A stretch of 64,000 bases of DNA, from NCBI GenBank assembly GCA_021822495.1, contig JAKAQO010000007.1, positions 46,777-110,776 on the forward strand. Reading direction: 5' to 3'. A model generated the notes under the pieces. That model saw only the letters and a program-made list of their open reading frames with translations, searched no databases and was not told the origin of the DNA. Below are positions 8,660 to 56,456 of this stretch, one piece after another. Both the position numbers and the translations under genes were made by a program. How positions within the stretch are numbered: position 1 is the stretch's first letter; each line of letters opens with the position of its first letter. The stretch comes from a bacterium (GTDB taxonomy: Bacteria; Elusimicrobiota; Elusimicrobia; UBA1565; UBA9628).

Positions 8660-9745
8660 TTATCTCATCTTAAGGGACGAGAGAGCGATGAGCATGAGAA
8701 CGATGCCGATAATCCAAAACCGAACGGTCACCTTGGGTTCTGGAACGCCTTGAAGCTCAAAATGGTGATGAATGGGGGCCATTTTAAAAACGCGCTTTCC
8801 TTTTCTAAGCTTGTAGGATCCCATTTGAAGAATCACCGAGAGGGTTTCAAGGACGAAAATCCCGCCGGCGATAGGAAGTAGAAGTTCTTGTTTTACGCAG
8901 AGAGACGCCAAAGCGATCATGCCGCCTAAAAAAAGAGAGCCCGTGTCTCCCATGAAAATTTCCGCGGGATAGGCGTTAAACCACAAAAATCCAAGACTTC
9001 CCCCCGCGATGGCCGATAAATAAACGGCAATTTCTCCCGCTCCTTCAACGTGGATGATTCGAAGATAAGACGCGAATTTAAGGTTTCCGGCTACATAGGC
9101 AATGATGGCATAAGTCGCGGCAAAGAGAATGACCGAACCAGTGGCCAGCCCGTCTTGCCCATCAGTGAGATTTACGGCATTAGAGGAGGCGACAATCATG
9201 AGCGTGGCAAGCACAAAATAAAACCGGCCTAAATTAATGAAAATTTCCTTACTGTAGGGGACGCTGAGGATGGTCGCGTATTCCGGACTGGGAGGGAAAA
9301 TAGCCAGATAAAAGACAATCAGAAGAGCGCTGCTTGATTGAATGAGAAATTTCGACCGGGAGCTGATTCCCGCGGGGTTTTTTGCCGAAAATTTCACATA
9401 ATCATCCCAGAATCCCAGGGCGGCCAAGATGGTTGAGGCAATCAGCATCAGAGGCGTAAAACGATCGTCCGGGCGCATCCATAAAATCGCTGAAACGGAA
9501 ACGACAAAAAAAATTAAAACTCCTCCCATGGTCGGGGTTCCCTGTTTGGGGAGATGGGTTTGAGGTCCGTCTTTTCTTTGGACTTGGCCCAGTTTTTTCT
9601 TTTTGAGAAAAGCGATAAAGCGCGGGCCGAACAAAAGAGACAGAATAAATGAGGTGACCGCGGCCCCGGCGGCCCTAAAGGTAATGTATTCGAAGATGTT
9701 AAAAATGCCGGAAGTTTTTTTGAGCGCGACAAGAAGATAAAGCAT
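8660..9745 (-). CDS. mraY: Phospho-N-acetylmuramoyl-pentapeptide-transferase
   Basis: Integral membrane enzyme that forms lipid I from UDP-MurNAc-pentapeptide and undecaprenyl phosphate. 361 residues, about ten helices. Visible signatures: DDYVKF (first catalytic Asp pair), NLTDGQDGLATG, MGDTGSLFLG and the C-terminal HHHFEL histidine loop. It begins one base after the murF stop and is coupled to it. Confidence 0.97.
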   Translation of the reverse strand: MLYLLVALKKTSGIFNIFEYITFRAAGAAVTSFILSLLFGPRFIAFLKKKKLGQVQRKDGPQTHLPKQGTPTMGGVLIFFVVSVSAILWMRPDDRFTPLMLIASTILAALGFWDDYVKFSAKNPAGISSRSKFLIQSSSALLIVFYLAIFPPSPEYATILSVPYSKEIFINLGRFYFVLATLMIVASSNAVNLTDGQDGLATGSVILFAATYAIIAYVAGNLKFASYLRIIHVEGAGEIAVYLSAIAGGSLGFLWFNAYPAEIFMGDTGSLFLGGMIALASLCVKQELLLPIAGGIFVLETLSVILQMGSYKLRKGKRVFKMAPIHHHFELQGVPEPKVTVRFWIIGIVLMLIALSSLKMR

Positions 9746-44768: not shown

Positions 44769-46860
44769 TTTGGAGCCCAAGGATTATTTGCTGGAAATCG
44801 GTCTTGAGCCTCTTCCGGCGCGGTTTCTATCCCCCGCTCTTGAAAGCTTGTCGTCTAAAATGCAAGAAGGATTAAAGGCCGCGCGTTTGCCGTTTAAATC
44901 CATCAGGACTTTGGGAACCCCAAGACGTCTGGCCGTTTTAATTGAAAAAGTTTCGCCAAAGTCTGAAGCCCTAAGCGAAAAATTTTTTGGGCCCCCCGCT
45001 TCCCGCCTTAAAAATCCCGATGGAAGCTATTCCTCGTCCGCGGAAGGCTTTGCCAGAAAATACGAGACAACTCCCAATCTGCTTTCCATTGAAATGACGC
45101 CCAAGGGCGAACATCTCTGCGTCGTGGTCAATCACACGGGCCGACCCTCACGCGAAATTTTAGCCGAAGCGGCGGTAAAAGCCATTTCTTCTCTCGAATT
45201 TCCGAAATCGATGGAGTGGGAAGAAACTCGCTTTAAATTCGCTCGCCCCATTCGTTCCTTTATCTCTCTTTGGGGAAACTTGCCGGTTTCTTTTTCTTTA
45301 GCCGGAGTTAAAACTTCGCGGGTTTTGCGCGGCCTCAGCGGCAAGCCGCTCAAGATTCAAGAGGCTTCCGAATACGAAAAAATCTTGAGAAACGAGGCTG
45401 TTTTAGTCTCCCTTGAGGAACGCCGGAAAACTTTGATTAAGAAATTGGATTGGGCGGCGGCCGAATGCGGGGGCGATTGGGATAAAGACGAAGATTTGAT
45501 TTCCGAAATGACCGCTATGACCGAGCATCCCGTCCCGGTCCTGGGTCATTTTGACAAGAAGTTTCTGGAACTTCCGCAATGCTTGATCAGTTTGGTTTTA
45601 AAAAAACAACTTAAGTTTTTCCCTCTTGCGAGTTCCGGAAAACTCATGAACGCTTTTATCGGAGTCAGAGACGGTATTTCCGAAGGTCAGAATTTAGTCC
45701 GGGAAGGCTTTGAGAGGGTCTTGATTGCGCGCCTTAACGATGCGGTTTTTTTCTTTGGAAAAGACCGCAAGCAGCCTCTTGAGGCCTATCTGGAAGAACT
45801 CAAGCGCGTGACCTACCAAAAAGAGCTGGGAACAATGGCCCAAAAAGCCGCTCGGGTTGAGAAACTGACGGATCAGCTGATGAGCCTATTGGGCGATTTC
45901 CCCCTTAGAAAAGATTCCTGCGTTGAAATTGCCCGGCTTTGCTATGCGGATTTAACCACGGGTTTGGTCAAGGAATTTCCGGAACTTCAGGGAACCTTGG
46001 GCGGGGTTTACGCGCGCTTAGACGAAAAAGATGAGAGAACGGCCTTGGGTCTTGAAGAATTTTATTTTCCCTTGGGCTCTAAAACTCCCATTCCGACGAC
46101 GGTGGAAGGTGGGCTTGCGTCCTTGGCAGGGAAGCTTGACTCCTTGGCCGGCTGTTTTGCGGTTGGGATGATCCCAACGGGAAACGCCGATCCTTATGCG
46201 CTCAGGCGTCAAGCCTTTGGAGTTATTCGGATCGCTCTTGAACGGCAATTGCCGCTAAATTTAGAAGAGGCGGTTTCCCTGGCTTTAAAAAATCAGCCCG
46301 TGAATTTGCCCGAAGATCGTTTTTCTCAAGTCCGTGATGAGCTGTTGGATTTTCTGTGGGGACGCGCGCAATCTTTTTTTGAAGACAGAGGATTTGCCAT
46401 TGATGAAATTCGCGCGGTCAAGGCCGGAGGGCTTAAAAATTTAAGCCAAACCTATCTTCGCCTGAGCGCCTTAAAATCGGTCAGAAAGGAGGCTGATTTT
46501 GAGCCTTTGGCGATGGCCTTTAAGCGCGCTTCCAATATTCTCAAACAGGCAAGGGTTGAAAATGGTCATCCAGGGGCCTCGAAAAATCACTTGTCTGATC
46601 CATCTGAACTCGCGCTCAGCGAATTTTTGGAAACCGCGGAGAAAGACCTCAACGAAAAGCGAGATCAGAATGATTTCGAGGGAATGTTAAAAACTCTCAC
46701 CAAGGTTAAGCCGCATTTGGATTTGTTTTTTGAAAAAGTGATGGTCATGGCCGAAAATTATGATCTGCGCCAATCACGCCTCAATCTTCTTGGGAAAATG
46801 GTTCATCTCTTCAAAGAGATTGCCGATCTCTCCGAGATTCAAGGCGCGTCGTCTAAATAA
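44734..46860 (+). CDS. glyS: Glycyl-tRNA synthetase beta subunit
   Basis: 708 residues. Partner of GlyQ that binds tRNA-Gly: N-terminal [14 protein letters not shown] (a variant of the usual LLxEIGTEELP), [16 protein letters not shown], the B-domain [28 protein letters not shown], then the HD-like and C-terminal DALR-type anticodon-binding regions. Its 3' end overlaps the convergent nadE by 22 nt with no terminator. Confidence 0.95.
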
Positions 46861-52339: not shown

Positions 52340-52407
52340 CCACGCATTCCGTCGCCCGGACAGGGCCAAAGGTCCTAGCTTGGTCTGGGCCCTTTAGACC
52401 TACCGGG

Positions 52408-52429
52408 AAAAGGGGACTGTCCCTTTTTT
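52408..52429 (-). terminator. Half-element hairpin ending the thiF-nitroreductase operon
   Basis: A-tract, GGGACAGTCCCC and T-tract on the minus strand immediately at the stop codon of the nitroreductase gene. It is the outer palindrome of the repeat family and has the form of a Rho-independent terminator. About 52345-52407, between it and the transglycosylase promoter, holds G/C-rich inverted runs (AGGGCCAAAGGTCC, GGGCCCTTTAGACC) I cannot assign. Confidence 0.5.
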
Positions 52430-53471
52430 AAATCTCTTTTCGGAGGCTGCGGGCGGAGGGTTCTTGGGCGGCATATCCGAAGCGGAAAAACATTAAAATT
52501 CCTCTTTCGTTTTCAAGGGAGAACGCTTCTTTGAGCATTTTGAGCCCTTGGGTCAGGCATTTCCGTTGGGAGGGCGTAAACTGAGAGGGATTATCCCGAA
52601 GCATATAAAGGAAGAAAATAAGAGCGGTTTCCGGCTGGAGAGACAGGCCCAGGGAGGTCAGCTTAAGCCAAAAGCGCTCAAAAAGCTTGCCTCCCTCCAG
52701 GACAGCCTTGGGCGAATCATTGGGAATTTGAATGAGCCCTAAAGCGGAAGAACCCAGGCACAATCGATAATCTTGAAAGGCCGCGAAGCGGCTGAGCCCC
52801 AAAAAGTTAAGAGCCTTTGTCAGCCCCCAAGAGCTTAAAAGCCGAAAGGCGGGTTCTTGAATTCTCAATTCCAGCGTCTTGATGTAAAGCCCGTCGCGGG
52901 TTTTTTCGGCATCCCTTTGGGTCCAGCGGATGCTGTTAAAAAGGGCGTCGTGGACATCTTTCCGTTCCATCATGACCTGGGAACCGTAAAAAGCCGCTTT
53001 GGCCGCGTATTTTTTAGCGAGAGAAACGTCCGCGATAAAGAGTTGTCCCAAGCCTGAATTTTGGGCGGTTTGAATCAGTTCTTTCCGAATTTGAGAAGGC
53101 AATTCCTTGCGCGAATAATTCCGGCGATTGACGGCGCGCTTTTCAATGAACGGGAAAAGCGGATGCGGTTTTTTTTCGGCGAGTTCTAGAAACCGGAGAG
53201 AAGCGATGAGGTCCCTCCCCCCCCCCGCCGGGAATAAATCCTCGATCATCTCGAAGCCAAATTCCTGGGCGGCGATGGACATATTTTCCAAGACGGCGCC
53301 GTAGCCGGGGAAGGATGCGCGATGACTTAAATTGAAGGGGTGGCTGAAAAATTCCCCGATGAGGTCTATCGAATTTTCTTTTAGGGAAAAACGCCAGTCC
53401 TGGAGATTATCTCCCGAGGGCGCCATCTGCCCATAGCGGGCGATTTTAAGGAGCGTTTCCCTGCTAATCAC
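52428..53471 (-). CDS. Acg-like nitroreductase-family flavoprotein
   Basis: 347 residues from GTG 53471, whose GTGA overlaps the thiF stop. The opening LKIARYGQMAPSGDNLQDWRF is the FMN-binding signature of the nitroreductase fold as seen in Acg-like proteins; a second pattern RAVNRRNYSRKELP lies near residue 140. Such proteins may bind flavin without being classic nitroreductases. A longer frame to 53570 lies within thiF. It is coupled to an E1-like enzyme, a pairing I associate with peptide or amide tailoring, but the substrate is unknown. Confidence 0.82.
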   Translation of the reverse strand: MISRETLLKIARYGQMAPSGDNLQDWRFSLKENSIDLIGEFFSHPFNLSHRASFPGYGAVLENMSIAAQEFGFEMIEDLFPAGGGRDLIASLRFLELAEKKPHPLFPFIEKRAVNRRNYSRKELPSQIRKELIQTAQNSGLGQLFIADVSLAKKYAAKAAFYGSQVMMERKDVHDALFNSIRWTQRDAEKTRDGLYIKTLELRIQEPAFRLLSSWGLTKALNFLGLSRFAAFQDYRLCLGSSALGLIQIPNDSPKAVLEGGKLFERFWLKLTSLGLSLQPETALIFFLYMLRDNPSQFTPSQRKCLTQGLKMLKEAFSLENERGILMFFRFGYAAQEPSARSLRKEI

Positions 53472-54355
53472 GATGAGATGGGGACAGTTCCCATCTCCGA
53501 GGCGCGTTTGACGCGGCGGAGGAGAATTTTTTGCTTGAGCTTCTGAACCGGGTTTTTTCCGCCGAACCACAAATATCCTTTTTTATAACGCTTGAGATAG
53601 GGATCGAATTGAAAATAATAGGGCGCGGCCAGGGGCGGAGTTCGCTTGAGAATCCAGTTGGCGGCTTCGGTTGAGGCCAGGCCCGCGCAAAGGGCGCAGG
53701 CGGAGGCTAAAGCCGGGCCCTTTCCGGCTTTGAGGTCCACTTTTCCGAGGTTGAGGTATTTCAGATGCAAAAGGGCCGGAGTCAGCCCCACGGCGAAAGC
53801 GGCGATTTTTTCCTCGTAAGTCATGGAATCGCTGATCCCGAAATATTCATCGAAATTCATTCCGAAGGGCGAAAAATTAAGAAGCATGGCGCCGAAACCC
53901 AAGGGGCCGGAGGTGACGACCGGAATTTTCTTTTTCCAGGCGGTCATGAAATAGAGTCTGCGCGCGTCAATTTCAAAAAAATCAATGCCGTCTAAGGCCA
54001 CATCCACCCCTTGAAGAAAGGCGTCGATATTTTGGGCGTTGACAAATTCCTTAAAGACCGTGACCTTGGCTTCTGGATTGATGGAGCGAACGATGGCAGC
54101 TATCGCCTCAGCCTTATTTTTTCCGAAAGTGTCCACCGAAGCCCCGTATTGGCGGTTGATATTGACGATTTCAAAAACGTCCTCATCGGCGACGTGAAAA
54201 TTTCCCACTCCCATGCGGGCTAGGGTCGCCAGATGAATGCCGCCTACTCCCCCGGCCCCGGCGACGGCGACCGTTGATTTTCGAAGAACGTTTTGCTCTT
54301 CTTCAGTGAAAATCCCGATGTTGCGGAAGAAAGCCTGATTGTAATCGTAATTCAT
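53468..54355 (-). CDS. ThiF/MoeB/E1-like adenylyltransferase
   Basis: 295 residues from ATG 54355 (MNYDYNQAFFRNIGIF). Rossmann ATP-binding fold with GAGGVGG (33-39), HVADEDVFEIVNINRQ and DGIDFFEIDARR, the E1 family motifs for adenylating a C-terminal carboxylate. The C-terminal part has CALCAGLASTEAANWIL, then a basic tail. No ubiquitin-like partner (ThiS/MoaD) is nearby. Its last residues EMGTVPISS come from a short copy of the palindromic repeat. The first ATG upstream (54427) lies beyond the divergent promoter, so ATG 54355 is chosen. Confidence 0.86.
   Translation of the reverse strand: MNYDYNQAFFRNIGIFTEEEQNVLRKSTVAVAGAGGVGGIHLATLARMGVGNFHVADEDVFEIVNINRQYGASVDTFGKNKAEAIAAIVRSINPEAKVTVFKEFVNAQNIDAFLQGVDVALDGIDFFEIDARRLYFMTAWKKKIPVVTSGPLGFGAMLLNFSPFGMNFDEYFGISDSMTYEEKIAAFAVGLTPALLHLKYLNLGKVDLKAGKGPALASACALCAGLASTEAANWILKRTPPLAAPYYFQFDPYLKRYKKGYLWFGGKNPVQKLKQKILLRRVKRASEMGTVPISS
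53475..53497 (-). repeat. Short palindrome inside the 3' end of thiF
   Basis: GAGATGGGGACAG followed by TTCCCATCTC forms a near-perfect palindrome related to the GGGGACTGTCCCC arm of the repeat family. It is in frame and adds the last residues of the ThiF-like protein, immediately before its stop and the coupled GTG. Confidence 0.6.
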
Positions 54356-54384
54356 TGAATTTTCTATATTCCTTGCTACAATAC

Positions 54385-54390
54385 TATAAT
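54385..54390 (+). promoter_or_regulatory. -10 box of the CheY/acyltransferase operon
   Basis: TATAAT, 5 nt upstream of ATG 54396, with no SD. The opposite strand carries the promoter of thiF in the same 40-bp gap, so the two operons share one regulatory interval. Confidence 0.6.
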
Positions 54391-54395
54391 AAAAC

Positions 54396-54776
54396 ATGGC
54401 TAAAAAAATAATGATCGCGGACGACAACCCGGTCGTCCATGCGTTAATTTCCGCGCAAATGTCTTTGATTGGATATGAAATCGCGGGCGTTGAACCAATT
54501 GGAAAAAACGTTTTGGCGACCTACTTTCGTCTTAAACCGGATCTTTTGGTCTTGGACATTAGTTTTGAGGATACTGATGGCCTGACTATTCTGCGTGAAC
54601 TCCGTAAGATATATCCGAAAGCCAAGGTTCTGGTTTTAAGCGCCAACGATCAAAAAGAAACTCGCGCAATCGTCGAGGGATTAAAGGCTTCGTTTTTGGC
54701 CAAGCCCTTTTCCGCATCCGATATCCAGGCGGCGGTTGCGGGAATATTGAGCGATAGCGCGGAGACTCTAAGGTGA
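54396..54776 (+). CDS. CheY-like single-domain response regulator
   Basis: 126 residues forming only a receiver domain: acidic pair D9/D10, phosphorylatable D54 (LLVLDISFED), S82 (LSAND) and K103 (AKPFS) are all in place. With no output domain it must act through a partner. The following gene starts in its last codon (GTGA overlap) and begins with a CheC-like domain, whose known job is to bind phospho-CheY; this strongly suggests the two proteins interact. Confidence 0.92.
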   Translation: MAKKIMIADDNPVVHALISAQMSLIGYEIAGVEPIGKNVLATYFRLKPDLLVLDISFEDTDGLTILRELRKIYPKAKVLVLSANDQKETRAIVEGLKASFLAKPFSASDIQAAVAGILSDSAETLR

Positions 54777-56092
54777 GCGAATCATTCAATTCTCAAGAGT
54801 TGGAGGTTCTTGGGAAGATTCTCAGGGACGGCGCGCTTTTAAGCGGCCGCAAATTGTCCAATTTTGGCCAGGGCAAATGGAAAGTTTCTTTTTCTGGAAT
54901 CCGGGCGATTGCGGGAGAGAAAGTTCCGGAATTTTTTAAGCTCGATACCGGGATGAACATGGGGGCTTTTCTCGGCATTTCAGAACCCTTCTTTTTTGAA
55001 GTCGTGATGTTGTTTCCAGAATGGAGTTTGATTCCTCTTGAGAAAAGTATCGCCTTGGCCACTGGCCTCAGCGTTGGGAATTTCGACATGAACCGCCCGG
55101 TTTTTAGCGAGGTGGCTAATATTTTGGGACACGGGATTTTAGGGGCCTTGGCGGATTACTGCGGAGAGGCTTTTATCTCGCTTGCGCCAAGGCTTGCGCG
55201 CGGAACAAAAGAGGAAATTATCTCAATGGCGGCCAAGCGTATGCCGGAAAAGGCCGAGGCGATACTCACCCACGCTGAATTTTTCTCGGACAGCCAATCC
55301 TGCGCGGCGACGGTCTTGGTTTTGGCTGATGCCGAGAGATTGAGAAAGGTCTTGCCGCAAGCGTCTGTTCCCGCCCTTGAAGAAGATAAGAAAGAGACCT
55401 CTTCCCAGGCAGAACTTGAGAAAGCCGCTTCTCCAAACGCCGATTTCGAGATTTTATGCGCCAAAACTCCTAAAGATATGCAGGATGTTTTCCGGCTGCG
55501 TTACCAGGTTTACGGCGTCGAACGCGGATTCTTAAATCCGGCGGATTATCCTGACGGGCTTGAAAAAGATATCTATGACGATTTTTCCGTTCATTTCTTG
55601 GCTCGCGATAGTCAAGGCCGCGCTCTTGGGACGGCTCGGCTCGTTTTAGACTCCCCGCATGGTTTTCCCATAGAAAAGGAGTATGACATCACGAAAACCT
55701 TGGCGCGAATTGACAGGAAAAAAATGGGAGAATTCTCGCGTTTCGCCATCCCAAGAAATTTGGGGAATGATAGCGAGGCATTGTCTGCTACGGATTCATC
55801 CCGTGCGGGACAGAGTGAAATCGCTTTAGCTTTGTTATTGGCGGTATTTCAGAAAAGCGATCAGGAAGGTTTAGCCTATGTTTGCGCGGCCATCGAGCGG
55901 GCTTTGTGGCTGGTGTTGCGCCGCGGAGGCATCGCGATGAATCAAATTGGAGAACCTAAAGACTATCACGGCATTCGCATCCCCTGTTTACTTGCCCTGG
56001 AAGAATCCGTCCGGCTTCGCATGTTTCCTTTCCCCAAGGAAGTCGAGGCCTTCTACGCCTCCCGCGCCAAGGGAATTTTCGAAGGTAAATAA
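54773..56092 (+). CDS. CheC-like phosphatase domain fused to a FeeM/LuxI-like N-acyltransferase
   Basis: 439 residues from GTG 54773. Residues 1-200 resemble CheC/CheX: the motif E113-x2-N116-x22-P139 (SEVANIL...LAP) matches the CheY-P phosphatase signature. A linker (200-222) leads to a GNAT-type domain with FRLRYQVYGVERGF (240-253) and E320-FSRFAI, as in autoinducer synthases and the PEP-CTERM-associated/FeeM N-acyl amino acid synthases. It should join an acyl chain to an amino acid or similar amine, and its activity may be set by binding of the adjacent CheY. I know of no described CheC-acyltransferase fusion. Confidence 0.82.
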   Translation: MSESFNSQELEVLGKILRDGALLSGRKLSNFGQGKWKVSFSGIRAIAGEKVPEFFKLDTGMNMGAFLGISEPFFFEVVMLFPEWSLIPLEKSIALATGLSVGNFDMNRPVFSEVANILGHGILGALADYCGEAFISLAPRLARGTKEEIISMAAKRMPEKAEAILTHAEFFSDSQSCAATVLVLADAERLRKVLPQASVPALEEDKKETSSQAELEKAASPNADFEILCAKTPKDMQDVFRLRYQVYGVERGFLNPADYPDGLEKDIYDDFSVHFLARDSQGRALGTARLVLDSPHGFPIEKEYDITKTLARIDRKKMGEFSRFAIPRNLGNDSEALSATDSSRAGQSEIALALLLAVFQKSDQEGLAYVCAAIERALWLVLRRGGIAMNQIGEPKDYHGIRIPCLLALEESVRLRMFPFPKEVEAFYASRAKGIFEGK

Positions 56093-56240
56093 GAAGAATC
56101 AATCATTTCCCCATTCTAAATATCAAATTATCTTAAACCTAAGTAAAGGTTGATTTAAATCAATTCCCGGACTTAACTTTTCTCATGGCGGGGTGGACGC
56201 GTTTCAAGCTATCCTAAAGATGTGAGAAAAGATAACCCAA

Positions 56241-56246
56241 AGGAGG
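56241..56246 (+). promoter_or_regulatory. Strong Shine-Dalgarno site of the repeat peptide gene
   Basis: AGGAGG, 8 nt upstream of ATG 56255. One of the best ribosome sites in the window, on an independent leader of about 30 nt if transcription starts near 56222 after TATCCT (56210-56215). Confidence 0.65.
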
Positions 56247-56254
56247 GTCATAAT

Positions 56255-56407
56255 ATGAAATCTATCATCTTGTCGTTGGCGTTTGCTGCGGTTGGAATGT
56301 TGTCCGTGAAGTCGTCCATCGTGAGTCCCTGTTCGCCGGGACATATCTGCGTTCAGCCTCAAATCGTCAGCCCCTGTAGCCCGGGCCATATTTGCATCAA
56401 CGGCTAG
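56255..56407 (+). CDS. Secreted 50-residue peptide with a duplicated Cys-rich motif
   Basis: Starts MKSIILSLAFAAVGML, a short Sec-type signal sequence, followed by two copies of IVSPCSPGHIC (residues 22-32 and 37-47) joined by VQPQ and ending ING. Cysteines are at 26, 32, 41 and 47. The copies use different codons for the same residues (for example Ser TCG versus AGC, Gly GGA versus GGC), so the protein motif is conserved by selection rather than by recent duplication. It has a strong SD and its own terminator. Not a known family. It could be a signal peptide, metal- or haem-binding peptide, or a modified peptide precursor; the neighbouring E1-like and flavoprotein genes make the last worth testing. 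Confidence 0.75.
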   Translation: MKSIILSLAFAAVGMLSVKSSIVSPCSPGHICVQPQIVSPCSPGHICING

Positions 56408-56427
56408 TTAAGGTATTAAAAAGAACA

Positions 56428-56456
56428 AACGCCCCGGTTATGCCGGGGCGTTTTCT
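56428..56456. terminator. Bidirectional Rho-independent terminator
   Basis: Perfect 10-bp stem AACGCCCCGG with CCGGGGCGTT, loop TTATG, then T-rich on the plus side and A-rich upstream. It ends the peptide transcript. It also serves the convergent adenosine deaminase gene, whose TAA (56438-56440) lies in the loop. Confidence 0.9.

Follow-up and report, generated by a model that had tools for sequence, protein, structure and literature searches.

A candidate acyl-oxazolone cassette with a putative receiver-CheC switch in a genus of Elusimicrobiota

The stretch analyzed here (the window) comprises 64,000 nucleotides of contig JAKAQO010000007.1 (forward strand, positions 46,777 to 110,776) in assembly GCA_021822495.1, from a bacterium of the phylum Elusimicrobiota (GTDB lineage Elusimicrobia; UBA1565; UBA9628), and our analysis concerns the genes at 52428-56456, which set predicted biosynthetic enzymes beside a receiver and a CheC-like domain. 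Gene calls returned all five genes where an initial annotation had placed them, together with the GTGA overlap and the 40-bp divergent gap that it had described. On the minus strand, the gene of a ThiF/E1-like adenylating cyclase (53468..54355) is joined through the GTGA overlap to that of an Acg-like flavin-dependent oxidase (FDO) of the nitroreductase superfamily (52428..53471), the predicted desaturase of an N-acyl amino acid or oxazolone. Across the divergent intergenic region (54356..54395), which carries a TATAAT-like sequence right before the receiver start codon and in which a consensus promoter scan stayed near chance level, the plus strand encodes a lone CheY-like receiver domain (54396..54776) and, overlapping it by 4 bp, a two-domain protein (54773..56092) that combines a CheC-like domain (residues 1-200; 54773..55372) with an N-acyl amino acid synthase (NAS) domain (residues 223-439; 55439..56092). 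These four genes form a cassette extending over 52407..56149, as delimited by aligning its flanks to a related genome, and lie between a transglycosylase (SLT) gene and the plus-strand gene of a secreted peptide (56255..56407) with an FNR-type palindrome, TTGATTTAAATCAA, at 56150..56163. Purifying selection acts on the genes between species, with a ratio of nonsynonymous to synonymous divergence (dN/dS) of about 0.05-0.25; NTR rows involving the genome of the window (G000) were left out of this comparison because of a frame slip. The window also holds five copies of a palindrome resembling repetitive extragenic palindromes, GGGGACWGTYCCC, at 52412, 53480, 57537, 61520 and 61624 (10 two-strand matches versus 0.15 expected). 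One copy stands at the left edge of the cassette and another at the ThiF/FDO junction, where it encodes C-terminal residues of the window ThiF protein that are missing from the ThiF protein of a sister species (G003).

By profile and motif, the ThiF protein, the FDO and the synthase constitute the family set of the acyl-oxazolone pathway (oxz/tyz/trz). The ThiF protein matched NF006077 (PRK08223) with 369 bits against a cut-off of 266 and PF00899 with E=2e-46, and it retains the GAGGVG, NINRQ and DGID motifs; the next-best models were the ThiF-nitroreductase fusions PRK14851 and PRK14852, ordinary ThiF/MoeB models remaining below 90 bits. Its nearest solved relative is the t6A cyclase TcdA, which likewise closes a ring via carboxylate activation. 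The FDO, 63-75% identical in three sister species, scored above the cut-off of PF00881 and matched both NF005901 (the Rv1355c family, that of TrzS; E=1.5e-39 over the FDO half of the model) and the Acg family NF047509 (E=2e-32), in each case below the curated whole-protein cut-off. Since the ThiF protein matches the ThiF part of PRK14851/PRK14852 and the FDO the C-terminal part of the same fusion models, the two would be expected to act together. The synthase half exceeded the cut-offs of TIGR03694 (149.5 bits; cut-off 112), PF21926 (FeeM; 45 bits, cut-off 27), PF00765 (Autoind_synth) and Acetyltransf_5. It carries R243, E264-x-D266-xx-D269, R289 and E320-xx-R323, among which the E-x-D-xx-D and E-xx-R patterns presumably resemble the active-site residues of LuxI/FeeM.

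The enzyme trio is thus not new and its chemistry is already known: what the initial annotation had called undescribed in this combination of E1-like, Acg-like and acyltransferase proteins is the published acyl-oxazolone pathway (PMC10404671, PMC12856293). Acyl-oxazolones are known compounds of tuberculosis bacteria and of bacteria from the sea. In Mycobacterium tuberculosis, TyzA N-acylates Tyr or Phe, the ThiF homologue TyzB cyclizes the product with ATP, and TyzC, a flavin-dependent oxidase of the nitroreductase superfamily, desaturates it with O2 to yield acyl-oxazolones (PMC10404671). The window shares with this tyrazolone pathway (tyzACB; Rv2336, Rv2338c, Rv2337c) the three enzyme kinds and an operon in which ThiF and FDO are encoded separately, and its divergent layout mirrors that of tyz, where tyzA adjoins tyzBC on the opposite strand (PMC10404671); it differs in that no CheC domain or receiver is described there and in that the window synthase is of the TIGR03694 kind. 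The tryptazolone system trzAS (Rv1356c, Rv1355c) also unites an acyltransferase with ThiF and FDO, and the window FDO matches the Rv1355c-family model, but TrzAS makes its tryptazolones via a ThiF-FDO fusion, TrzS (PMC12856293). Similarly, oxzAB of Pseudoalteromonas rubra has three activities in common with the cassette (PMC10404671), whereas OxzB is again a ThiF-FDO fusion, and no signalling domain is described for either trzAS or oxzAB. The nasY clusters of stieleriacine, thalassotalic acid and kyonggic acid producers possess the same set of NAS, ThiF and nitroreductase; the products, however, are reported as open-chain N-acyl dehydrotyrosines, methyltransferases occur in some clusters, and in the accessible part of that source neither a receiver nor CheC is reported (PMC12479983).

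The N-terminal half of the fusion is, on profile evidence, a genuine but divergent CheC. A profile built from 20 homologues (A4) aligned with the solved CheC 3qta at E=1e-14 (positions 7-187) and with the T. maritima CheC 1xkr/2f9z at 1e-8 (positions 1-164), the E-X2-N helix being aligned, and the NCBIfam CheC model was matched by 12 of the 20 homologues. In the second half of the domain, the site E113-X2-N116-X22-P139 is intact and its E, N and P columns are conserved in the 20 homologues, P139 without exception; we take E-X2-N-X22-P to be the CheC/CheX phosphatase signature. Fold family and site thereby liken the domain to the CheC/CheX/FliY phosphatases of phospho-CheY, from which it differs in being fused to a biosynthetic enzyme, in its degenerate first-half site (K15, R18) and in its genomic setting. 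CheW (PF01584) had no match in this 95% complete genome, control matches being found in 7 of 14 genomes; the receiver and CheC are therefore not assigned to chemotaxis, and we rejected such a role. The receiver itself (PF00072, E=5e-17) has T. maritima CheY (1tmy) as its best solved relative (E=1e-16) and retains the acidic pair D9/D10, D54, S82 and K103.

Receiver and CheC-like genes are a common two-gene unit across the phylum. Relatives yielded 23 CheC-like loci, and at 20 of them the gene immediately upstream, in the same orientation, encodes a lone receiver, mostly with a 4-bp overlap. In one genome of another genus (G021), receiver, CheC and synthase each have a gene of their own, the three lying side by side; CheC and synthase are 43% and 52% identical to the corresponding halves of the window fusion, and this is the arrangement expected before fusion. 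The fusion itself was detected in four of the five species of a single genus among 340 genomes of the phylum, and a contig scan returned two records only, both from this genus. A plasmid collection yielded lone acyltransferases and ThiF proteins only, with no CheC-synthase fusion and no CheC match, and in the literature we found no report of a CheC-acyltransferase fusion or of receiver control over acyl-oxazolone-type pathways. Hence, the novelty appears to reside in the control, a synthase fused to an N-terminal CheC beside its own receiver gene, the chemistry being known. Beside the split cluster of G021 lies a 423-residue open reading frame (ORF; L066:4410-5681) that by eye resembles a DDE-type transposase/integrase and is consistent with mobility of that cluster. 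Separately, a genome of the same family as the window (G007) encodes a second synthase, of the TIGR03694 kind, directly after a gene that encodes a receiver domain and no CheC (L068:3729-5196), possibly an independent link of receiver and synthase.

The distribution of the enzymes was in line with a joint function. Strong NAS matches and oxz-type ThiF matches fell in the identical 7 of 57 related genomes, and FDO accompanied them in six, so that the co-occurrence anticipated for ThiF, Acg-like protein and synthase held for the first and last and was broken for the flavoprotein in G021. The initial proposal of one module making a modified small molecule is supported by this co-occurrence and by the family matches. 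The three enzyme genes are clustered in four species of the genus, and plainer forms occur elsewhere: an NAS-ThiF-FDO operon in G007 (L067), a ThiF-FDO fusion in a member of the same class (G051; L071), and, on a plasmid of N. vulgaris (L118:6062-9031), FeeM, ThiF and nitroreductase in one 989-residue protein inside a PEP-CTERM polysaccharide locus, which suggests synthesis of an oxazolone-type lipid by a single polypeptide. In G021, the ThiF gene is overlapped by a co-oriented DAHP synthase gene (TIGR00034, 477 bits versus a cut-off of 173). DAHP synthase catalyzes the first step towards the aromatic amino acids, and this overlap therefore points to an aromatic amino acid substrate, as in the known pathways.

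The fifth species of the genus (G004) exposes the empty site. It has the transglycosylase on one side and the peptide and a deaminase on the other, with nothing between them, and the flanks of the other four species, when aligned to it, meet at one point (L089, position about 9390-9393). Searches of its genome for the fusion, oxz-type ThiF and FDO were negative for all three. By its transglycosylase and its peptide, G004 groups with G001 and G002 (91-93% and 98-100% identity); for this reason we consider loss from G004, to which recombination with an empty allele may have led, likelier than several gains. In either case, the four genes are present or absent as one unit, and the peptide does not follow them.

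This peptide, of 50 residues, contains IVSPCSPGHIC twice, with four Cys and two His, and in a search of the 57 genomes showed clear relatives only within the genus. It occurs in all five species and directly follows the fusion gene in the four that bear the cassette, and the TTGATTTAAATCAA box is perfect in all five, its center always 98 bp from the ATG. The initial annotation had counted the peptide among the parts or substrates of the module, a view that we abandon: G004 keeps it (78% identical) beside the same flanking genes without the cassette, the kind of outcome that this annotation had itself named as a refutation. Because peptide and box both remain there, they belong to the genomic backbone and not to the module. 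The peptide is possibly metal- or redox-linked and induced by a regulator of the Fnr/Crp type. Elsewhere in the genome of the window, a second exact TTGATTTAAATCAA site (L090:3870-4438; contig C4, 580369) lies just before a 157-residue ORF with a signal-peptide-like start; TTGATN4ATCAA sites number 7, where the reversed pattern, taken as a control, gave 1, and the genome encodes three Crp/Fnr-type helix-turn-helix proteins.

Taken together, we favor the reading that the four genes form an acyl-oxazolone cassette carrying its own phosphorylation switch, and we assign this reading a probability of roughly 0.6. We infer from the family set that the product is likely an acyl-oxazolone, probably derived from an aromatic amino acid: the synthase domain would acylate an amino acid, most likely an aromatic one, with a fatty acyl group, the ThiF-like enzyme would activate the carboxylate with ATP and close the oxazolone ring, and the Acg-like flavoenzyme would desaturate the oxazolone with O2. 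A kinase would phosphorylate the receiver, which would then dock on the CheC half of the synthase and change its activity or placement, while the E-X2-N site of CheC may hydrolyse the receiver phosphate and so reset the switch. The phosphorylation-controlled pathway of the initial annotation is thus plausible, the residues of receiver and CheC being intact and the pair conserved; its control through CheC is a step that we infer. The broader view that CheC confers direct phospho-receiver-operated control on a biosynthetic enzyme, as a portable receiver-CheC switch outside chemotaxis that was joined in one genus to acyl-oxazolone synthesis, is offered more tentatively, at a little under even odds.

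Several observations weigh against the favored reading. Single CheC-half sequences fall below the Pfam thresholds, a structure model of the fusion from three close sequences was discarded at a mean predicted local distance difference test (pLDDT) score of 35, and no kinase was identified for the receiver. The plain operon of G007 uses a FeeM-kind synthase while that of the window is of the TIGR03694 kind, and the substrate may therefore differ. The genome of G021 has no FDO match, so that its pathway may go no further than an earlier product; an assembly gap is possible, given that 174 bp separate its ThiF gene from the end of the contig. Furthermore, ThiF identity reaches 91-93% within each species pair and 47% between the pairs, where the neighbors of ThiF are at about 75%, and neighboring genes are 63-80% identical throughout the species compared. 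The G000 and G003 copies of ThiF group with that of the G007 plain operon (support 100/99), and in the fusion gene any two of the four species stand equally far apart (73-76% identity). Between G001 and G002, synonymous divergence (dS) was 2.4 for the synthase half, 0.7 for the CheC half, 0.5 for FDO and 0.4 for ThiF; branch lengths of the NAS tree were unreliable and were not used. These patterns, drawn from few sequences and near-saturated dS, suggest piecewise exchange inside the cassette, and with a cyclase exchanged between lineages the products may differ.

Among the alternatives, CheC and receiver might only co-locate or oligomerise the synthase, or CheC might dephosphorylate the receiver for some other target, leaving catalysis outside phosphorylation control. 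The wide occurrence of receiver-CheC pairs without a synthase, which would imply some other general job, and the degenerate first-half site both favor this possibility, but the synthase gene of G021 comes right behind that of CheC, the two are fused in the studied genus, and the second-half E-X2-N-X22-P site is kept in all four fusions; we consider the idea somewhat unlikely. The product could instead be an open-chain N-acyl (dehydro)amino acid akin to the stieleriacines and the thalassotalic and kyonggic acids, if the ThiF activation served otherwise or the ring opened, and this we regard as unlikely. The nearest solved ThiF relative, TcdA, is itself a ring-closing cyclase. The assayed trios TyzACB and TrzAS also form oxazolones (PMC10404671, PMC12856293), whereas the same three gene kinds are present in producers of the open-chain acids, where no oxazolone was seen (PMC12479983).

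Two further alternatives are far less probable. The name of its best family, TIGR03694, would place the synthase in an exosortase/PEP-CTERM surface system, in agreement with its above-cut-off match and with the locus of the three-in-one N. vulgaris relative; no exosortase (PF09721) was found in the eight genomes tested, with control matches in only 1 of 14 genomes, so that sensitivity was lightly checked, and on this result we rejected an exosortase context as very improbable. To the notion of a peptide signal, with the repeat peptide as the molecule that the module would modify and export, we likewise give hardly any weight. The position of the peptide directly after the fusion gene in the four cassette-bearing species speaks for it, but peptide, box and spacing are the same in G004, whose genome lacks the cassette throughout, the FNR-type box is the peptide gene's own, and none of the cassette proteins showed a leader-binding domain. 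A cluster for a ribosomally synthesized and post-translationally modified peptide was accordingly rejected, the precursor not being co-inherited with the enzymes.

The role of acyl-oxazolones in bacteria is described as a major open question (PMC12856293), and if the more tentative view of direct receiver-operated control through CheC is true, a phosphorylation signal would set lipid output in these bacteria by acting on the enzyme and not through transcription. With its first enzyme fused to CheC, this version of the pathway suggests that a sensed signal prompts production on demand, and it offers a direct handle for testing. To our knowledge, CheC-type control of a biosynthetic enzyme would be without precedent, and the receiver-CheC pairs that are widespread in the phylum would become candidates for a general switch.

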